Program-made: the position numbers and the translations under genes
Notes under the pieces: model-generated
Told to the model about the DNA's origin: nothing
Database searches by the model: none
What the model saw: the letters and a program-made list of their open reading frames with translations, nothing else
NCBI RefSeq assembly: GCF_001423125.1
Contig: NZ_LMNW01000001.1
Coordinates: 421,433 to 485,432 of the forward strand
Reading direction: 5' to 3'
Origin: Duganella sp. Leaf126
GTDB lineage: Bacteria; Pseudomonadota; Gammaproteobacteria; Burkholderiales; Burkholderiaceae_D
Length of the DNA: 64,000 nucleotides
Part shown: piece after piece, positions 12,522 through 21,183 of the stretch
Position numbering within the stretch: position 1 is the stretch's first letter
How the letters are laid out: each line of letters starts with the position of its first letter

Positions 12522-13871
12522 ATGAACCGCCCCCGCCCTGCCAGCCACCTGATCCACCGTCATCTGCGCCAGACGCCGCCCGTCGTCGGCGCGGCCGCCG
12601 GCATGGTCGTGCACGACCGCGAAGGCCGCCGCTACCTCGATGCCAGCGGTGGCGCGGCCGTGTCGTCGCTCGGTCATGCGCACCCCGAGGTGCTGGCGGC
12701 CATGCATGCCCAGATCGACCGCAATGCCTACGCCCACACGGCCTTCTTCACGTGCGAGGCGGCCGAGGAACTGGCGGCGCGGCTGGCCGCCGATGCGCCG
12801 GGCGACCTCGATCAGGTGTACCTGGTCTCGGGCGGTTCCGAGGCGATGGAGACGGCGCTGAAACTGGCGCGCCAGTATTTCGTCGAGGCGGGCGAAACGC
12901 AGCGCAGCGTCTTCATCGCCCGCCGCCAGAGCTACCACGGCAATACGCTCGGTGCGCTGGCCATCGGCGGCAACGAGTGGCGCCGCCGGCCGTTCGCGCC
13001 GCTGCTGATGGACGTGGCGCGGGTGGCGCCGTGCTTCGAGTACCGCGAGCGCGCGCCGGACCAGAGCCTCGAGGCCTACACTGCGTCCCTGCTGCGCGAA
13101 CTGGAAGACACCATCATCGCAACGGGGCCGCAGCGCATCATCGGCTTTTGCGCCGAAACCGTGGTGGGCGCCACGGCCGGCGCCGTGCCGCCCACGCCCG
13201 GCTACTTTCGCGGCGTGCGCAGCCTGTGCGACAAGTACGGCATCCTGTGGATTGCCGACGAGGTGATGTGCGGCATGGGGCGTACCGGCACGCTGTACGC
13301 GTTCGAGCAGGAAGGCGTGCTGCCGGACCTGGTGGTGCTCGGCAAGGGGCTCGGTGCCGGTTACCAGCCGATCGGCGCGGTGCTGGCACGCGCGCCGGTG
13401 GTCGAGCGGCTGCGCCAGGGCAGCGGCATCTTCATGCACGGTCACACGTACATGGGCCACCCGGTGGCTGCCGCCGCCGCGCTGGCGGTGCAACAGGTGA
13501 TCCGGCGCGACAACCTGCTGGGCGCTGTGACCGGCCGCGGCGCCGTGCTGCGCACCATGTTGCGCGAAGCGCTGGGCGGCCATCCGCACGTCGGCGACAT
13601 CCGCGGCCGGGGCTTGCTGATCGGGGTGGAACTGGTGCGCGACCGCGCGACCAGGGAGCCGTTCGATCCCGCGCTGGCGCTGCACGCGGCGATCAAGCGC
13701 GAGGCGATGGCCTGCGGCCTGATGGTCTATCCGATGGGCGGCACCATCGATGGCGTGCGCGGCGACCATGTCCTGCTGGCGCCGCCGTTCATCGCCAGCG
13801 ACGCCGACCTGGCCGAGATCACCGACCGCCTGGCGCAGGCGGTCAAGCGGGCGATCGCCGGCGCGTCCTGA
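12522..13871 (+). CDS. Class III PLP-dependent aminotransferase
   Basis: This 449-aa fold-type I transaminase belongs to the omega-aminotransferase/aspartate aminotransferase-like group. PLP contacts are visible: GGSEAMETALKLAR for the phosphate, D246 in WIADEVMCGMGRTG for the pyridine nitrogen, and K275 in LVVLGKGLGAGYQPIG for the Schiff base. The start has AGGACCTCC just upstream. The substrate is unclear; candidates include diamines, beta-alanine or an amino-sugar. No neighbour fixes its pathway. Confidence 0.85.
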   Translation: MNRPRPASHLIHRHLRQTPPVVGAAAGMVVHDREGRRYLDASGGAAVSSLGHAHPEVLAAMHAQIDRNAYAHTAFFTCEAAEELAARLAADAPGDLDQVYLVSGGSEAMETALKLARQYFVEAGETQRSVFIARRQSYHGNTLGALAIGGNEWRRRPFAPLLMDVARVAPCFEYRERAPDQSLEAYTASLLRELEDTIIATGPQRIIGFCAETVVGATAGAVPPTPGYFRGVRSLCDKYGILWIADEVMCGMGRTGTLYAFEQEGVLPDLVVLGKGLGAGYQPIGAVLARAPVVERLRQGSGIFMHGHTYMGHPVAAAAALAVQQVIRRDNLLGAVTGRGAVLRTMLREALGGHPHVGDIRGRGLLIGVELVRDRATREPFDPALALHAAIKREAMACGLMVYPMGGTIDGVRGDHVLLAPPFIASDADLAEITDRLAQAVKRAIAGAS

Positions 13872-13908: not shown

Positions 13909-14763
13909 CTATTTGCGCGGCCGCCAGTCGATCACTTCCTGCTGCTGCTCGCCGAGGCCGGGAATGCCCAGGCGCAGCTGGTCGCCCTTTTTCAGGAAGC
14001 GCGGCTTGGCCAGTCCCATGCCCACGCCCGGCGGCGTGCCGGTGGCGATCACGTCGCCCGGCTCCAGCGTCATGAACTGCGACAGGTAGCTGACGATCTG
14101 CGCCACCGTGAAAATCATGGTGGACGTATTCCCGGTCTGCATGCGCTTGCCGTTTACTTCGAGGTACAGGTCGAGGTCCTGGACGTCGCCGATGTGCTCG
14201 GGCGTGACCAGCCACGGACCGACCGGGCCGAACGTATCGCAGCCCTTGCCCTTGTCCCATTGCGGGCCGCGCTCGAGCTGATACGAGCGTTCCGACACGT
14301 CGTTGACCACCGTGTAGCCGGCCACGTATTTAAGCGCCTCGTCTTCGGTCACGTATTGCGCGCGCGTGCCGATGATGACGCCCAGCTCCACCTCCCAGTC
14401 GGTCTTCTTGGAGCCCTTGGGCAGCATGATCGGATCGTCCGGGCCGCTCAACGCGGTATTCGCTTTCAGGAACACGATCGGCTCCTTGGGCGGCGCCATC
14501 TTCGCTTCGGCCGCGTGGTCCGAGTAATTGAGGCCGATGCAGACGAACTTGCCCACGTGCTTGACCGGCACGCCGAAACGCGGGTTGCCGCGCACCACCG
14601 GCAGCGTGGCGGGATCGATCTTTTCCAGCTTGCGCAGGGCCTTGGGGGCCAGCTGGGCGGCGTCGATATCGTCGATCACGCCCGACAGCGCACGCAGCTT
14701 GCCTTCGTCGTCGATCAGGCCAGGTTGTTCTTTGCCGGGACGGCCATAGCGCACAAGTCTCAT
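13909..14763 (-). CDS. Fumarylacetoacetate hydrolase-family protein
   Basis: This 284-aa protein has the FAH C-terminal fold. Metal ligands are expected from DWEVELGVIIG and the nearby ISR-like NDVSERSYQL. KFVCIGLNYSDHAAE and VIATGTPPGVGMG are the conserved active-site blocks. The family cleaves or isomerises 2-keto-acids, decarboxylates oxaloacetate, or acts on ureidoglycolate; sequence alone does not choose. It follows the 2OG-Fe(II) dioxygenase gene by 44 nt on the same strand, so it could be the last gene of that operon. Confidence 0.85.
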   Translation of the reverse strand: MRLVRYGRPGKEQPGLIDDEGKLRALSGVIDDIDAAQLAPKALRKLEKIDPATLPVVRGNPRFGVPVKHVGKFVCIGLNYSDHAAEAKMAPPKEPIVFLKANTALSGPDDPIMLPKGSKKTDWEVELGVIIGTRAQYVTEDEALKYVAGYTVVNDVSERSYQLERGPQWDKGKGCDTFGPVGPWLVTPEHIGDVQDLDLYLEVNGKRMQTGNTSTMIFTVAQIVSYLSQFMTLEPGDVIATGTPPGVGMGLAKPRFLKKGDQLRLGIPGLGEQQQEVIDWRPRK

Positions 14764-14807: not shown

Positions 14808-15698
14808 TCAGCCGTAGCGCGCCTGGCGCAGCCATTTGTTGGCGATGATCTTGGTGCCCTGGACCACCGGCGCGCCGCCGTGCAGGGTCTGGTGGTCGGG
14901 ATGGTGATGCGGGTCGGTGTTGAGGAACCACAGCGCACTGCCCTTTTTCGGATAGACCTCGAGGCCCAGGCCCGGAAACACGGTGCCGCCGCCCTGCTCC
15001 ACGTCGGTCAGGTACAGGATGAAGGTGGCCAGGCGCTGGCCGCCGCGCGCCAGGTGGCTGCGGTGGCCGCTGGCGTCGGGATCAAGCCAGTCGTAGTGCG
15101 GCCGGTACTCCTGCGTGCTGGCGTACCGTTGCAGCTGGAACGGCTCGCCGCGGTCGGCCGGCCAGTGCGACAGCAGCGCCAGCCGGCGCTCGATGCGATC
15201 GGCAATCGCGGCCTCGCCCCGGGCGATGAAGGCCATGTCGCTGGTGCGGCCCTCGTGCACCACGCTCGCACCGTCTTCGGCGCCGGTGACGGTGGAGCGC
15301 GTGTAGCGCGAGGAGGAATCAGCCCCGGCATCGCAGTGCGCGACGAGGGCGTCGCACTCGCCGCTGTCGAGTACATTGCCGAGCAAGATCACCTGTGGGC
15401 TTTTCAGCACGAACAGCACGTCGATGGCGCGCTGGTCCACCATGATGCGGTTGCGCGTGGTGTCGATGAAAGGCATGGCCTGGTCCGGCGCGTGCACGTT
15501 GGCGCCGGGTCCGATCGCGCGTGCGTGCACCGCTTCGTCGAGGGCCGCGCGCGCCACGTCCAGCGTGTACTGGCCCGAGCGCGCCATGCTGTTGACCATG
15601 TCGAGCGGGCTGCAGCCGCGCGCCAGGTTGTCGGCGATCCAGTCCTGCCACGACTGCGGCAGCGAAGCGAGCACGGGAGAGGTGGCGGCATCGGTCAT
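14808..15698 (-). CDS. 2-oxoglutarate/Fe(II)-dependent prolyl 4-hydroxylase-type dioxygenase
   Basis: This 296-aa protein has a C-terminal P4H/SM-20-like double-stranded beta helix. Iron ligands are H201 and D203 (EYRPHYDWLD) and H273 (HHPDHQTLHGG); K283 in GTKIIANKW should bind 2-oxoglutarate. The first 100 residues are family-variable. Its ATG overlaps the MFS transporter stop by ATGA, so it is coupled to that gene and to kamA. Substrate could be a peptidyl proline or a free amino acid; neither is proven. Confidence 0.88.
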   Translation of the reverse strand: MTDAATSPVLASLPQSWQDWIADNLARGCSPLDMVNSMARSGQYTLDVARAALDEAVHARAIGPGANVHAPDQAMPFIDTTRNRIMVDQRAIDVLFVLKSPQVILLGNVLDSGECDALVAHCDAGADSSSRYTRSTVTGAEDGASVVHEGRTSDMAFIARGEAAIADRIERRLALLSHWPADRGEPFQLQRYASTQEYRPHYDWLDPDASGHRSHLARGGQRLATFILYLTDVEQGGGTVFPGLGLEVYPKKGSALWFLNTDPHHHPDHQTLHGGAPVVQGTKIIANKWLRQARYG

Positions 15699-17287
15699 GG
15701 ACTGGTGGGAACCTTATCGGAAGCGGGTGTGATGTCCATTCTACCGGAAGCGTCGTCCGTCTCGCACCGGCGCTGCCAGCAGCGCCAGCCATACCACGCC
15801 AGCCCCGGCGCCTGCAGCGCCAGCAGCAGGGCGAAACCTGCCTGATAGGCCTGCGCCGGATAATGGCCGCCGCCGTCGGGCCGCCAGCAATCGAGCACCA
15901 GCCCGAAGCCCGCCTGCACCGCGAACGCGCCCAGAAAGATCAGCAGGTTCAGGCAGGTGGCCGCACGTCCGGTCAGCCGGCCCGGCAGGCCCTGCGCCAC
16001 CATCGTGTACTCGATGCCGGTCACCGTGCCCACCAGCGTGAACAGCACCGCCAGCACGGCCAGTGCCGCCACGCCCGGCTGCCAGCCGCAGACCAGGCCC
16101 GCCTGCACCAGCAAGAACAGCGCCACGCCGGCAGCGGCCACGCGCACCGTCGGCACGCCACGGCGTGCGGCCCACTCGGTGATCATGCCCACGGCGATGG
16201 CGCCGGCGATCACTGCACCCATGGCCACGTACAGCAGCCAGCTCACGCGGTCCTCGGCATAGCCGGCCACGTCGCCGAGCCAGCGGCCGATCCACAAGCC
16301 CTGGATGCCGAAGAACACCATGTGCGGCACCAGCACCAGCTGCGCCGCCTCGCGGAACGCCGGGTGGCGCAGGATCTCGGCCATGGCCGCGCGCAGCGGC
16401 TGGTGCTGCACGGTGGCCGGCTGCGGCGGCACCAGCAGCCGGATCAGCACGCCGGTCAGCATCAGCGCCGAAGCCAGCCCCACGAACAGGCTGCGCCAGT
16501 CGGTGTAATCGAGTGCGATGCGCACCGGCAGCGTGGCCGATGCGGCGCCCAGGCCGCCGACGGCGATCAGGTAGCCCTGCATCGACGGCAACCGCGCCGG
16601 CGTGAGCCAGGTCGACAGCGCCTTGACCGCCGCCATGAAGCAGCCGCCCACGCCGAACCCGATCACCGCGCGCGCCACCAGCAGCTGGGCAAAATCATGG
16701 CCGCCCGCAAATGCCAGCGCTCCCAGTGCAGCGATGACCAGCAGCGGCAGCTGCACCCGCGCCGGCCCCCAGCGGTCGAGCGCCACCCCCACCGGCAGCT
16801 GCGCCAGCGCGAAGGCGAAAAAGAAGGCGCTGGTGAGCAAGCCCAGTTGCCCGGGTGTGAGCGCCAGCGCCGCCGTTAGCGCCGGCGCCAGCGTGGCGTT
16901 AATCATGCGCAGCAGCGTGGACAGATAATGGCCCAATGCGAACGGCAGAAAGACCATCAGCACCACCATGCGTCGCGACAGCGCCGGGGCGATACCGGCA
17001 GCGCCGTCTGCGTCGGCAGCCGGCGGGACCGCGGGCAAGCGGCCAGCTTCCGCGCACGCTGCGCAGTCGGCGCCATCGGCGTAACAAGCATGCTCGGCGC
17101 AAGCTACGCAGTCTGTGCCACCGGCGCAACGAGCACGGTCGGCGCACGCTACGCAGTCGGCACCATCGACGCAACGAGCGCGGCCAGCGCACGTCGCACG
17201 GTCGGCATCATTGGCCCAACAAGCGCGGTCAGCGCAGGCTGCACGCTCGGCGCGGTCAGCGCGATGGACAGGACCGGTGGTCAGCAT
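15695..17287 (-). CDS. MFS transporter with Cys-rich 15-residue-repeat N-terminal extension
   Basis: Residues 107-530 form a normal 12-helix major facilitator, starting MVVLMVFLPFALGHYLSTLL with the loop motif GVALDRWGPARVQL. The first 106 residues are unusual: five 15-residue repeats with 12 cysteines, including three CxxC pairs (45/48, 60/63, 75/78). A start at 17287 is 3 nt after the kamA stop; a start at 16969 would give a standard 424-aa transporter. Neither start has a clear ribosome-binding site. The substrate is unknown, and the dioxygenase gene is coupled downstream. Confidence 0.75.
   Translation of the reverse strand: MLTTGPVHRADRAERAACADRACWANDADRATCAGRARCVDGADCVACADRARCAGGTDCVACAEHACYADGADCAACAEAGRLPAVPPAADADGAAGIAPALSRRMVVLMVFLPFALGHYLSTLLRMINATLAPALTAALALTPGQLGLLTSAFFFAFALAQLPVGVALDRWGPARVQLPLLVIAALGALAFAGGHDFAQLLVARAVIGFGVGGCFMAAVKALSTWLTPARLPSMQGYLIAVGGLGAASATLPVRIALDYTDWRSLFVGLASALMLTGVLIRLLVPPQPATVQHQPLRAAMAEILRHPAFREAAQLVLVPHMVFFGIQGLWIGRWLGDVAGYAEDRVSWLLYVAMGAVIAGAIAVGMITEWAARRGVPTVRVAAAGVALFLLVQAGLVCGWQPGVAALAVLAVLFTLVGTVTGIEYTMVAQGLPGRLTGRAATCLNLLIFLGAFAVQAGFGLVLDCWRPDGGGHYPAQAYQAGFALLLALQAPGLAWYGWRCWQRRCETDDASGRMDITPASDKVPTSP
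17053..17277. repeat. 45-nt tandem repeat, five copies
   Basis: Five head-to-tail 45-nt units begin at 17053, 17098, 17143, 17188 and 17233, most with CGCACGCT or a close variant. The middle three are most alike; the last is degenerate. On the minus strand they encode 15-residue repeats with DCxxC in the later units, as part of the MFS gene. Confidence 0.85.
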
Positions 17288-17290
17288 CGT

Positions 17291-18739
17291 TCAGGCGGCG
17301 CTGGGGGTGACGGGCATGGCGGGGCCGGCCGACGCGCCGCAGCCGTTGGCGGCGCGGGCGCTGCCGGCGGGCACCAGCTGGATCACCTTGCGCTCGCCGG
17401 CCGGCGCCGGCGCGTGGTCATGGCCGCTGCGGCTGCCGCCGTCCTCCTCGAAGAAGAACCGGTCCGCGCCGAATGCCGGTTGCAGCTCGTCGAGCCAGGT
17501 GGCGTGCGGGTCGAACCTGGCGTAGAACGGCCTGCGCACCCAGTCCGGGTTGCGCGCCTGCAGAAACTGCAGCGCAAACACCTTTTCGCCGCCGATGGTG
17601 ACCACGCCGTCCACCACCACCTTGCCCGGGAAGGCGCTCATCGACGGGCCGCGCACGGTGCGCGCCAGGCCGGACACCATCTGGTACGCCGCCTGGAAAA
17701 TCTCGTGCGCCCGCGCCAGCGGCAGCTGGAAGTAGTCGTGCGGACCGGTGTCGCGCTCGACGAACATATAGTAGGGAATCGCCCCCAGGCGCACGCCGGT
17801 CTGCCACAGCTCGGCCCAGCTTTTCGGGTCTTCGTTGATGTGGCGGATCAGGGGGCCCTGCATGCGCAAGGTGGCGCCGGTGCCGACGATGCGTTTGACG
17901 GCCTGCCGGGCGATTTCCTGGCGTAGCTCCACCGCGTGGTTGTAATGGCCCATCAGGGCCAGGTTCTTGCCCGCCGCGACCACCCGCTCGAACAGGCACA
18001 GCAGATCGTCGGCGTCGCGGTCGGTGACGAAGCGCTGCGGCCAATACGCCACCGACTTGGTGCCGATGCGGATGTTCTGGATGTGCGCGAGTTCGGGGGC
18101 GAGCAACGGTTCGATATAGGCTTCGAGCGAACGGGTATTCATCACCAGCGGATCGCCGCCGGTGATCAAGACATCGGTCACCTGCGGCTGCGTCTTCAGG
18201 TAGGCGGCCAGCTCGGTCGATGCGCGGGCATCGAACTTGAGGTCGTCCATGCCGACGAACTGCGGCCAGCGGAAGCAGAAGGTGCAGTAGGCGTGGCAGG
18301 TCTGGCCGGCACTCGGAAAGAACAGTACCGTCTCCTGGTACTTGTGCTGCAGGCCGCGCAGCGGCACGCCGTCCATGTGCGGCACGTTGTGCGTCATCTG
18401 CCCGGCCGGATGCGGATTCATCTGCAAGCGGATCCTGCGCACCAGCGCGGCCAGCGCCTCCGGCCTGGCGTTGCCCAGCACCAGCGCGCGCAGCTGGGCG
18501 TAGTCGTCCGGCGCCAGCATGTCGCGGTGCGGGAACACCAGCCGGTAAATCGGATCGTCGGGGATGTTGTTCCAGTCGATCAGCTGGTCGAGCACATAGT
18601 CGTTGGTGCGGAACGGCAGCACCTGCGATACCACCTGCACGGCTTCCTGCAGCTCGGGCGTGAGCCACTGCCACTGGCGCGCCTCGGTAATCGTCTGTCG
18701 GGTATAGGGTTTGAACTTGGCGGGGGCGGGAACGGTCAT
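17291..18739 (-). CDS. kamA: KamA-family radical SAM protein (lysine 2,3-aminomutase-like)
   Basis: This 482-aa radical SAM protein has the cluster motif CHAYCTFCF (C148, C152, C155), a GGDPL SAM-binding loop, and a likely PLP lysine K373 in SAFPGKVVVDG. It should move an amino group between C2 and C3 of an amino acid. By eye, R329 stands where lysine aminomutase has Asp293, and the Asp330 region is replaced, so lysine may not be the substrate. It is longer than EpmB (about 340 aa). The start MTVPAPAKF follows AGGAG; the open frame upstream is not homologous. Confidence 0.85.
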   Translation of the reverse strand: MTVPAPAKFKPYTRQTITEARQWQWLTPELQEAVQVVSQVLPFRTNDYVLDQLIDWNNIPDDPIYRLVFPHRDMLAPDDYAQLRALVLGNARPEALAALVRRIRLQMNPHPAGQMTHNVPHMDGVPLRGLQHKYQETVLFFPSAGQTCHAYCTFCFRWPQFVGMDDLKFDARASTELAAYLKTQPQVTDVLITGGDPLVMNTRSLEAYIEPLLAPELAHIQNIRIGTKSVAYWPQRFVTDRDADDLLCLFERVVAAGKNLALMGHYNHAVELRQEIARQAVKRIVGTGATLRMQGPLIRHINEDPKSWAELWQTGVRLGAIPYYMFVERDTGPHDYFQLPLARAHEIFQAAYQMVSGLARTVRGPSMSAFPGKVVVDGVVTIGGEKVFALQFLQARNPDWVRRPFYARFDPHATWLDELQPAFGADRFFFEEDGGSRSGHDHAPAPAGERKVIQLVPAGSARAANGCGASAGPAMPVTPSAA

Positions 18740-18978
18740 GAGGACTCCTGTCACAGTCGAAGGGCGGAGACTGGATGCTAGGGGCCACGTCCAGGTTCGT
18801 AGTTGCCAGATATCAACGCCACGATTAAATGACCATAGGAAATAAATCAGGCCTTGAAGCAAGTTGGCTGACTGCCACACCAGGAATTTCCATGCGGCCA
18901 TTACTTGCGTCATCGCAATTTCTCCCGTGCCCCGCGCCGGTACAGTTCACAGCTCCCTCCCCCTGTAAGGACCTCGTC
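18740..18978. promoter_or_regulatory. Divergent gap between kamA and the Cache gene
   Basis: This 239-nt gap separates two divergent genes and must hold both promoters. It has an AT-richer centre around 18820-18850. I could not pick out a convincing promoter pair, hairpin or operator, and I see no small gene with a ribosome-binding site. Confidence 0.4.
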
Positions 18979-19446
18979 ATGAAACTGCACCCCGTCATCA
19001 CCAGCGTTGCTGCTGCCGCCCTGTTGTCGTGCTACGCCGTGCCGGCACTGGCTGCCGAGCCGACCGAAAAAGACGCCATCGCCATGGCCGAACGCGGCGC
19101 CGCCTTCATCAAGGCCCACGGCAAGGACGAGATGATCCGCAAGGTGGCCGCGCGCGACCCGGGCTTCATCCAGGGCTCGCTGTACGTGGACATCCGCGAC
19201 CTGAAGACCGGCATCGTGCTGGCGCACCCGGTCAACCCGTCCATCGTCGGCAAGGACCTGACCGATGTGCCCGACGCCAGCGGCAAGAAATACCGCCGCG
19301 AGATCATCGACCTGGCCGCCAAAAAAGGCAGCGGCTGGGTCGATTACCAGTACAAGAATCCCGCCACCGGCAAGCTGGAACAGAAGACCACCTACATCCT
19401 GCGCGTGGACGACGTGGTGCTCGAAGCCGGCATTTACAAGAAATAA
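18979..19446 (+). CDS. Secreted single-Cache-domain protein
   Basis: This 155-aa protein has a Sec signal peptide ending near PALAAEP. The rest is one Cache_2-like sensor domain: GSLYVDIRDLKTGIVLAHP, IVGKDLTDVPDASGKKY, then GSGWVDYQYKNP and the closing YILRVDDVVLEAGIYK. It carries no membrane or signalling domain, so it is probably a periplasmic ligand-binding protein. The chemoreceptor gene follows after 27 nt, which suggests the two work together. The start ATG follows AAGGA. Confidence 0.82.
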   Translation: MKLHPVITSVAAAALLSCYAVPALAAEPTEKDAIAMAERGAAFIKAHGKDEMIRKVAARDPGFIQGSLYVDIRDLKTGIVLAHPVNPSIVGKDLTDVPDASGKKYRREIIDLAAKKGSGWVDYQYKNPATGKLEQKTTYILRVDDVVLEAGIYKK

Positions 19447-19473
19447 CACCATTGACACGCACGGGAGAGCACC

Positions 19474-21183
19474 ATGCTGAACAAACTACGGATCGGTCCC
19501 AAACTGCTGCTCGCGCCCGGCCTGGTGCTGCTCCTGCTGATCGTCACGGCAGGCGCGGCGTCGGTCGGCATGGTGCGCCAGAACGCCTCGCTGGAGAACC
19601 TGGTGCAGATCAGGGCCGCGCGCCTGAAAACCACGGCCGACGTGGCCGGCGAAGCGCGCTATGCCCATGCCCAGATCTACCAGCTGCTGGCGTGGGTCAA
19701 CGGCAGCTTTGCGCAAAGCCGCCTGGACCAACTGGGGCTGCAGATCAAGACCCGCCACGCCGGCATCGAGGATGCTTTGCGGCGCCTGGCCGGCGCCGCC
19801 ATCCAGGGCGAGGAGCGGCGCTACGTCGAGCAGTCGCTGGTCGCCCTGGCCGAGTACCGCAAGGCGGTGCTGGAGACCATGGACATGGCGCAGATGGACC
19901 AGAGCATCGCCACCAACGCCATGTCCAAGGCCGAAAAGCAGTTCCTGGTGCTCAACGATCAGCTGGCGCAGCTGTCCGATCTGGAAAAGCGCCTGAGCGA
20001 ACGGGCGCACGCCCGCGCCACGGCCGACTTCCACGCGCTGGCCGGCACCATGGGGCTGCTGGTGCTGCTCTCGATCGTGCTGTCGCTGGGTGTGACCATG
20101 GCCGTGCGGCGCGCCATGCTGCGCGATATCCGGGGCATCGGCGAGGTCGTGATGGCGCTGGCCGAGGGCCGGCTCAGCGCCGGCCGCAGCCCGCAGGGGC
20201 GCGACGAAATCGCCGACACCGCGCGCCTGCTCGACCAGAGCATGGGCAACCTGACCGGCACCATCGCCACCATCCTGGGCGCGGTGCGCTCGATCGACAC
20301 GGCTGCCCACGAAATCGCCAGCGGCAACCAGGACCTGTCCACCCGCACCGAGATGCAGGCCAGTTCGCTGGAACAGACCGCCAGCGCGATGGACAGCCTG
20401 ACCCAGGCCGTCCAGCAGACAGCCGCCAACGCGCGCCAGGCCTGCCAGCTGGCGGCCGACGCCAGCGACATGGCGCAGCGCGGCGGCGCCGCCGTGCAGC
20501 AGGCCGTGCAGACCATGGCGACCATCCGCGGCAGTTCGCGCCAGATCGTCGACATCATCGGCGTGATCGACAGCATCTCGTTCCAGACCAATATCCTGGC
20601 GCTGAACGCGGCGGTGGAAGCGGCGCGCGCCGGCGAACAGGGACGCGGCTTTGCGGTGGTGGCGGCCGAAGTGCGCACGCTGGCCCAGCGCTCGGCAGCG
20701 GCAGCCAAGGAGATCGACGCCCTGATCTCGGCGTCGGTGGCCACCATCGACAGCGGCAGCGCATCGGTACACCAGGCCGGCGAGCGGATGGTCGATATCG
20801 TGGCGTCGGTGCAGCAGGTCAACGACATCATCGCCCGCATCAGCGCCGCCAGCGCCGAGCAGGCCCAGGGCATCGCAGAAGTCAACCAGGCCGTGGGCCA
20901 GATGGACGACGTGACCCAGCAGAACGCGGCGCTGGTGGAGCAGGCGGCAGCGGCGGCAGAAAGCCTGCAGGAGCAGGCGGTGCAGCTGTCGCAGGCGGTG
21001 TCGGTGTTCCAGGTGGGCGAGGTGGCGGCCGATGCGGCAGCAGCCGGGACGACGCTGGCCGACGTGTCGGCTGCGGCGGCGCCGTCACTGGCGGAACGGC
21101 TTGCTCAGAAAGCGCGAGCTCGCCAGGCCAAAGCGCCACGGCAGCTCAACGGCTTTGGAAATGCCGATGCGCGGGCCGGCTAA
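19474..21183 (+). CDS. Methyl-accepting chemotaxis protein
   Basis: This 569-aa chemoreceptor has TM1 at about 11-33, a four-helix periplasmic domain, TM2 at about 190-212, HAMP, and a cytoplasmic coiled coil. The conserved tip is at 369-400 ([34 protein letters not shown]). The last 32 residues are antisense to mpg, whose coding sequence overlaps the gene from 21085. The final sequence is basic and lacks a CheR-binding pentapeptide. The preceding Cache protein may feed it a ligand. Confidence 0.92.

Follow-up and report, generated by a model that had tools for sequence, protein, structure and literature searches.

We analysed a 64,000-nt stretch of the Duganella sp. Leaf126 genome (contig NZ_LMNW01000001.1, positions 421,433 to 485,432; hereafter the window). 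It carries a kamA-like gene for a radical S-adenosylmethionine (SAM) enzyme, which is followed on the minus strand by a major facilitator superfamily (MFS) transporter gene and by a gene for a prolyl-4-hydroxylase-like 2-oxoglutarate (2OG)-Fe(II) dioxygenase (P4H). A sequence-only reading had proposed that these three genes form one operon, which could make and export a hydroxylated beta-amino acid. We identified that kamA and the MFS gene are a real conserved two-gene unit in Oxalobacteraceae, while the three-gene composition kamA-MFS-P4H is a local arrangement. The locus carries the following features:

17291..18739, minus strand: kamA-like gene for a radical SAM, pyridoxal 5′-phosphate (PLP) aminomutase, 482 aa, with C148/C152/C155, R157, R329 and K373
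15695..16969, minus strand: MFS transporter, conserved core, 424 aa, probable start at Met 16969, assigned from PF07690 and synteny
16970..17290, minus strand: long-start extension of the MFS gene or spacer, 106 codons, not conserved, containing 45-bp repeats
14808..15698, minus strand: P4H gene, 296 aa, with H201/D203/H273/K283 intact
13909..14763, minus strand: FAH-family hydrolase gene past the P4H gene, a neighbour and not a constant member
12522..13871, plus strand: class-III (PRK07483-type) aminotransferase gene, a candidate metabolic partner of kamA
18981..19446, plus strand: single-Cache (sCache_2) sensor gene, divergent from kamA, a conserved neighbour
19474-21183, plus strand: methyl-accepting chemotaxis protein (MCP) gene, after the sCache gene

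The coordinates confirmed the three minus-strand genes in their proposed place, together with the ATGA shared by the MFS stop and the P4H start and the 44 nt between the P4H and FAH-family genes. The family assignments (KamA, MFS, 2OG-Fe(II) dioxygenase and FAH) were upheld by profile or structure-sequence matches: the MFS protein matched MFS_1 (E 6e-29), the FAH protein matched FAA_hydrolase (E 4e-74), and the P4H protein matched 2OG-FeII_Oxy_3 (E 3e-14) as well as the Bacillus P4H 5hv0 (E 4e-34), with the iron triad (H201, D203, H273) and the 2OG-binding Lys (K283) intact. The 3-nt gap that had been proposed between kamA and the MFS gene exists only if the latter starts at 17287; this start is not conserved and lies inside the repeat-array spacer. 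It would add 106 Cys/Ala-rich low-complexity residues to the MFS protein, coded by a 45-bp tandem array (17052-17251) of about 3-4 copies that are 80% alike and that stay open in the MFS frame, and no ribosome site was evident for this start. The conserved MFS start of the 74 loci mostly follows the end of kamA by 20-200 nt, with 39-84 nt being common. For the window, the distance from kamA to this start (Met 16969) is 322 nt, and in the closest relative (G106) only about 33 nt separate kamA from the MFS match. Terminator-like matches numbered 9 versus 2.3 in shuffles, two of them within or beside the repeat spacer. A promoter scan did not find a sigma-70-like site, and an Rfam search of the window identified no riboswitch upstream of kamA, its sole match being one tRNA.

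We took 80 related loci from named genomes, of which 78, window included, were long enough to judge, and each gene was also searched for across 196 family genomes. The MFS gene was found directly downstream of kamA in 74 of the 78 loci, comprising all 74 Oxalobacteraceae loci; the four loci without an adjacent MFS gene belong to Paraburkholderia and Trinickia. Full-length kamA was present in 44 of the 196 family genomes, and an MFS orthologue was present in 43 of these 44 genomes versus 1 of the 152 without kamA, counts that are not phylogenetically independent. P4H was identified in 18/78 loci, all within the Duganella/Rugamonas group, and 8 of these loci share the exact ATGA overlap. Because the MFS gene goes with kamA and P4H occurs in few loci, the unit is kamA-MFS. 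The adjacency of kamA and the MFS gene goes beyond chance, which does not hold for the trio. Thus, when the three-gene set was held against synteny outside this genome, a test set beforehand, the kamA-MFS coupling extended across Oxalobacteraceae, while the trio was found only inside one group of genera and P4H did not stand as a constant member. A literature search found no paper on the kamA-MFS pair in Oxalobacteraceae.

We further studied the family membership of KamA. The protein had no Pfam match and scored under every curated cut-off, including TIGR00238 (E 8e-36), the AblA model TIGR03820 (104.6 bits vs a cut-off of 525.4) and the EpmB model TIGR03821 (89 vs 369 bits). The only sequence match in solved structures was the lysine 2,3-aminomutase (LAM) of C. 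subterminale (PDB 2a5h, E 8e-22), which was also the top Foldseek match (E 1.6e-17) of the AlphaFold2 (AF2) model (pLDDT 83). An alignment of 32 KamA-subfamily members and a tree of 68 proteins put KamA in a subfamily that is supported at 100/100 and is distinct from both AblA and EpmB. The subfamily ranges over Betaproteobacteria, Gammaproteobacteria and Actinomycetes; in Gammaproteobacteria it was found in 30 of 273 other class genomes (E<=1e-30), most members being about 50-58% identical. Its members are usually annotated as lysine 2,3-aminomutase, plasmid records included. Judged by profile scores and tree placement, this is an uncharacterised subfamily within the known KamA-type radical SAM aminomutase superfamily.

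Residue counts were obtained from 49 subfamily members and compared with 5 AblA and 10 EpmB proteins. The CxxxCxxC motif (C148/C152/C155) was invariant in 49/49 members, and so were R157 and K373 at the positions of LAM R134 and K337. In LAM, R134 binds the carboxylate, K337 holds PLP, and D293 and D330 hold the epsilon-amine of lysine. At the LAM D293 position, all 49 members carried Arg (R329), whereas Asp was found in 5/5 AblA and 10/10 EpmB proteins. At the LAM D330 position (366), the members carried Ser (41), Val (7) or Ile (1), while AblA has Asp and EpmB has Glu; the alignment to AblA was ungapped around both pocket sites. Since a fixed Arg occupies the site for lysine's amine, the side chain of the substrate is predicted to be acidic. 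Such a substrate is well supported by these residues and probable, and whether it is glutamate in particular could go either way. The beta-amino acid product assigned to KamA by the sequence-only reading is still the best reading of the enzyme, as predicted from superfamily membership and pocket residues. Two KamA relatives outside the subfamily but of the same phylum (L211, L212) likewise have Arg in place of LAM Asp293, and may represent a second acidic-substrate group.

Some subfamily members lie in biosynthetic gene clusters. One of them, 58% identical to the window KamA, is located in Streptomyces sp. NBC_00334 among type I polyketide synthase (PKS) genes of a macrolactam-type cluster, and carries the Arg equivalent to R329 at the LAM Asp293 position. 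Its neighbours are a PLP aminotransferase-like enzyme, two AMP-binding enzymes, a free acyl carrier protein (ACP), an ACP acyltransferase and a proline iminopeptidase-family hydrolase. In incednine-type clusters, IdnL4 is a putative glutamate 2,3-aminomutase, a role backed by idnL4 disruption, and IdnL3 decarboxylates the beta-glutamate intermediate (PMC11284099); incednine is an example of the beta-amino-acid macrolactam gene set (PMC11284099; PMC9230918; PMC10662134). Compared by gene layout alone, the NBC_00334 cluster matches these IdnL4/IdnL3 clusters. Other members adjoin nonribosomal peptide synthetase (NRPS) or PKS genes in Mycetohabitans, Streptomyces and a gammaproteobacterium. When 12 of 20 distant gammaproteobacterial loci were drawn, no neighbour was common to the 12; one of them (L167) lies in an NRPS cluster, where kamA directly follows a large NRPS gene and is itself followed by 2OG dioxygenase-like and ABC transporter genes. 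On plasmid pDK3 of Rhodococcus sp. DK176 (L218), a member was found with cupin, luciferase-like monooxygenase, SidA-type monooxygenase, tRNA-ligase-like and ATP-grasp genes.

The sequence-only reading had also suggested a protein modification that echoes the EpmB/EpmC logic of EF-P, and this analogy was rejected. In this genome, EF-P has the sequence ...NGSSR32TG and is encoded directly after the gene for EarP, which is a rhamnosyltransferase. The window KamA was the only KamA-family match in the genome, so that no EpmB was identified, and no search was aimed at EpmA. As EF-P carries Arg32 next to EarP and there is no other KamA, the EpmB/EpmC logic does not apply to EF-P here. The pocket charge of KamA is moreover reversed relative to EpmB.

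Based on the pair and the pocket residues, we propose that KamA is a PLP-dependent radical SAM 2,3-aminomutase which converts L-glutamate to beta-glutamate (3-aminoglutarate), and that the product is moved by the MFS protein; we give this proposal about an even chance. In such a mechanism, a [4Fe-4S] cluster at C148/C152/C155 would cleave SAM, PLP would be held at K373, and R157 would bind the alpha-carboxylate, while R329, replacing the lysine-binding Asp, would bind the side-chain carboxylate. L-glutamate would thereby become beta-glutamate, to be moved by the MFS protein, presumably out of the cell, an export role that we rate slightly short of even. The class-III aminotransferase may interconvert beta-glutamate and 3-oxoglutarate.

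Several points weigh against this proposal. The Arg in the pocket is compatible with other acidic substrates, and the best solved relative of the MFS protein, whose cargo is a prediction here, is a weak match to NorA. The Foldseek TM-scores to 2a5h are moderate (0.55-0.65). KamA matches the glutamate 2,3-aminomutase model TIGR04368 weakly (83.5 bits vs a cut-off of 650), and is therefore not a Clostridioides-type enzyme, though the same reaction is possible. No confirmed activity is on record for any member of the KamA subfamily, and in vitro activity of IdnL4 was not observed (PMC11284099). The Fisher values for the co-occurrence counts ignore shared ancestry and are not probabilities, and kamA in Gammaproteobacteria is usually found without the aminotransferase.

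The aminotransferase bears on an alternative in which it forms a glutamate side path with KamA, from L-glutamate through beta-glutamate to 3-oxoglutarate or in reverse, with the MFS protein as an uptake or overflow carrier. Among the 196 family genomes, the aminotransferase was present in 44/44 with kamA versus 9/152 without it. It lies 4 kb from kamA in the window and was kept even where unlinked, as in a kamA-bearing genus (g6) that has it elsewhere in the genome; the four Paraburkholderia/Trinickia kamA genomes have it outside the 8-kb kamA flanks. In G027, a copy 59% identical to that of the window is located 3 nt downstream of kamA. Genome G171 carries a syntenic locus (L253) in which the MFS gene is kept and kamA is absent, and it is also without the aminotransferase. 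However, the correlation is absent in Gammaproteobacteria, shared Oxalobacteraceae ancestry could explain most of the count, and the substrate of the aminotransferase is itself a prediction. We consider such a side path rather unlikely, and regard the aminotransferase as a possible metabolic partner of kamA, a lead.

It is likewise unlikely, in our view, that the beta-glutamate made by KamA serves as a compatible solute or building block, with the MFS gene as a chance partner frozen by synteny. This alternative draws on the 11 drawn gammaproteobacterial loci outside gene clusters, in which kamA stands alone, and on the synteny of the whole neighbourhood in Oxalobacteraceae; yet kamA and the MFS gene stay adjacent while the FAH, aminotransferase, CMD and P4H genes come and go.

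The three-gene pathway, in which KamA would make a beta-amino acid, P4H would hydroxylate it and the MFS protein would export the hydroxylated product, appears improbable. The gene order and the ATGA overlap speak for it here, as does the recurrence of both in the Duganella/Rugamonas loci counted above. However, among the 44 kamA genomes P4H was present at the locus in 7 and missing from it in 37, and homologues 46-54% identical were found beside unrelated genes in genomes without kamA, so that P4H as a fixed member was rejected on distribution. It looks like a later insertion between the MFS and FAH genes in the Duganella/Rugamonas group. Because the protein resembles peptide or protein prolyl hydroxylases (5hv0), and not free amino-acid hydroxylases, a substrate of its own is likelier than a free beta-amino acid, and P4H probably hydroxylates a peptide or protein independently. 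By eye, sugar-metabolism genes (glucokinase-like, trehalose-type) were often seen close to P4H homologues in other places, with no kamA. FAH was also rejected as a pathway member, being next in line in only 47/78 loci and having L-2,4-diketo-3-deoxyrhamnonate hydrolase, an enzyme of the rhamnonate pathway, as its closest solved relative. Finally, that KamA is a true LAM and the pair makes and exports beta-lysine is very improbable: members do bear that name in plasmid records and the only solved relative is a LAM, but 49/49 members have Arg in place of Asp293 and Ser, Val or Ile in place of the second Asp, the AblA score is 105 vs 525 bits, and the clade is separate.

Other genes recur around the unit. 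A divergent single-Cache gene was located upstream of kamA in 73/78 loci, corresponding to the sCache and MCP region at 18829-21183 in the window. In L112 a second sCache gene lies between kamA and the MFS gene, and an sCache match was found there in L103 too. Inspection by eye identified a LysR-type regulator divergent from kamA in Paraburkholderia, Trinickia and G027 (L107, L109, L116, L117, L254), and a ferredoxin-like gene after kamA in Paraburkholderia, possibly an electron donor. In Trinickia soli (L109), kamA is convergent with MFS, IucA/IucC-like synthetase and opine-dehydrogenase-like genes, which by eye suggests a metallophore cluster.

Returning to the proposed glutamate 2,3-aminomutase with its transporter, we tentatively suggest a dedicated beta-glutamate system, a reading that we rate as less likely than not: a widespread, unrecognised aminomutase subfamily, commonly named lysine 2,3-aminomutase, would make beta-glutamate, and in Oxalobacteraceae it would come with an exporter of its own and with a transaminase for beta-amino acids, so that these soil bacteria would release or cycle beta-glutamate outside peptide and polyketide pathways. 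If this is true, many proteins called lysine 2,3-aminomutase are misnamed, and one residue, Arg in place of LAM Asp293, would tell them apart. The family would then offer an accessible, highly conserved set for testing glutamate 2,3-aminomutase activity, and common soil bacteria would make free beta-glutamate as a product and have a dedicated transporter for it.

Compared with known systems, KamA is like LAM (AblA/KamA, 2a5h) in fold, in the CxxxCxxC motif, in the carboxylate Arg and in the PLP Lys. LAM differs in that both amine-binding Asp residues are kept, in its separate clade and in its partner, which is the AblB acetyltransferase instead of the MFS protein. EpmB belongs to the same KamA superfamily and has Asp in the pocket where the window KamA has Arg. 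The Bacillus P4H (5hv0) has a catalytic domain like that of the window P4H by sequence, including the HxD...H and Lys motif, whereas the window protein has an extra N-terminal region of about 75 residues. Ruzicka and Frey reportedly described in 2007 a Clostridioides difficile glutamate 2,3-aminomutase with a charge change at the substrate pocket; the window KamA would be alike in this charge change, while it matches TIGR04368 only weakly. For IdnL4, a subfamily member fills the matching slot in an incednine-type cluster, and the conversion of L-glutamate to beta-glutamate is predicted for both. In contrast to the IdnL4 setting, no polyketide or peptide synthase lies near the window kamA, and here the predicted product would be free beta-glutamate accompanied by a transporter.

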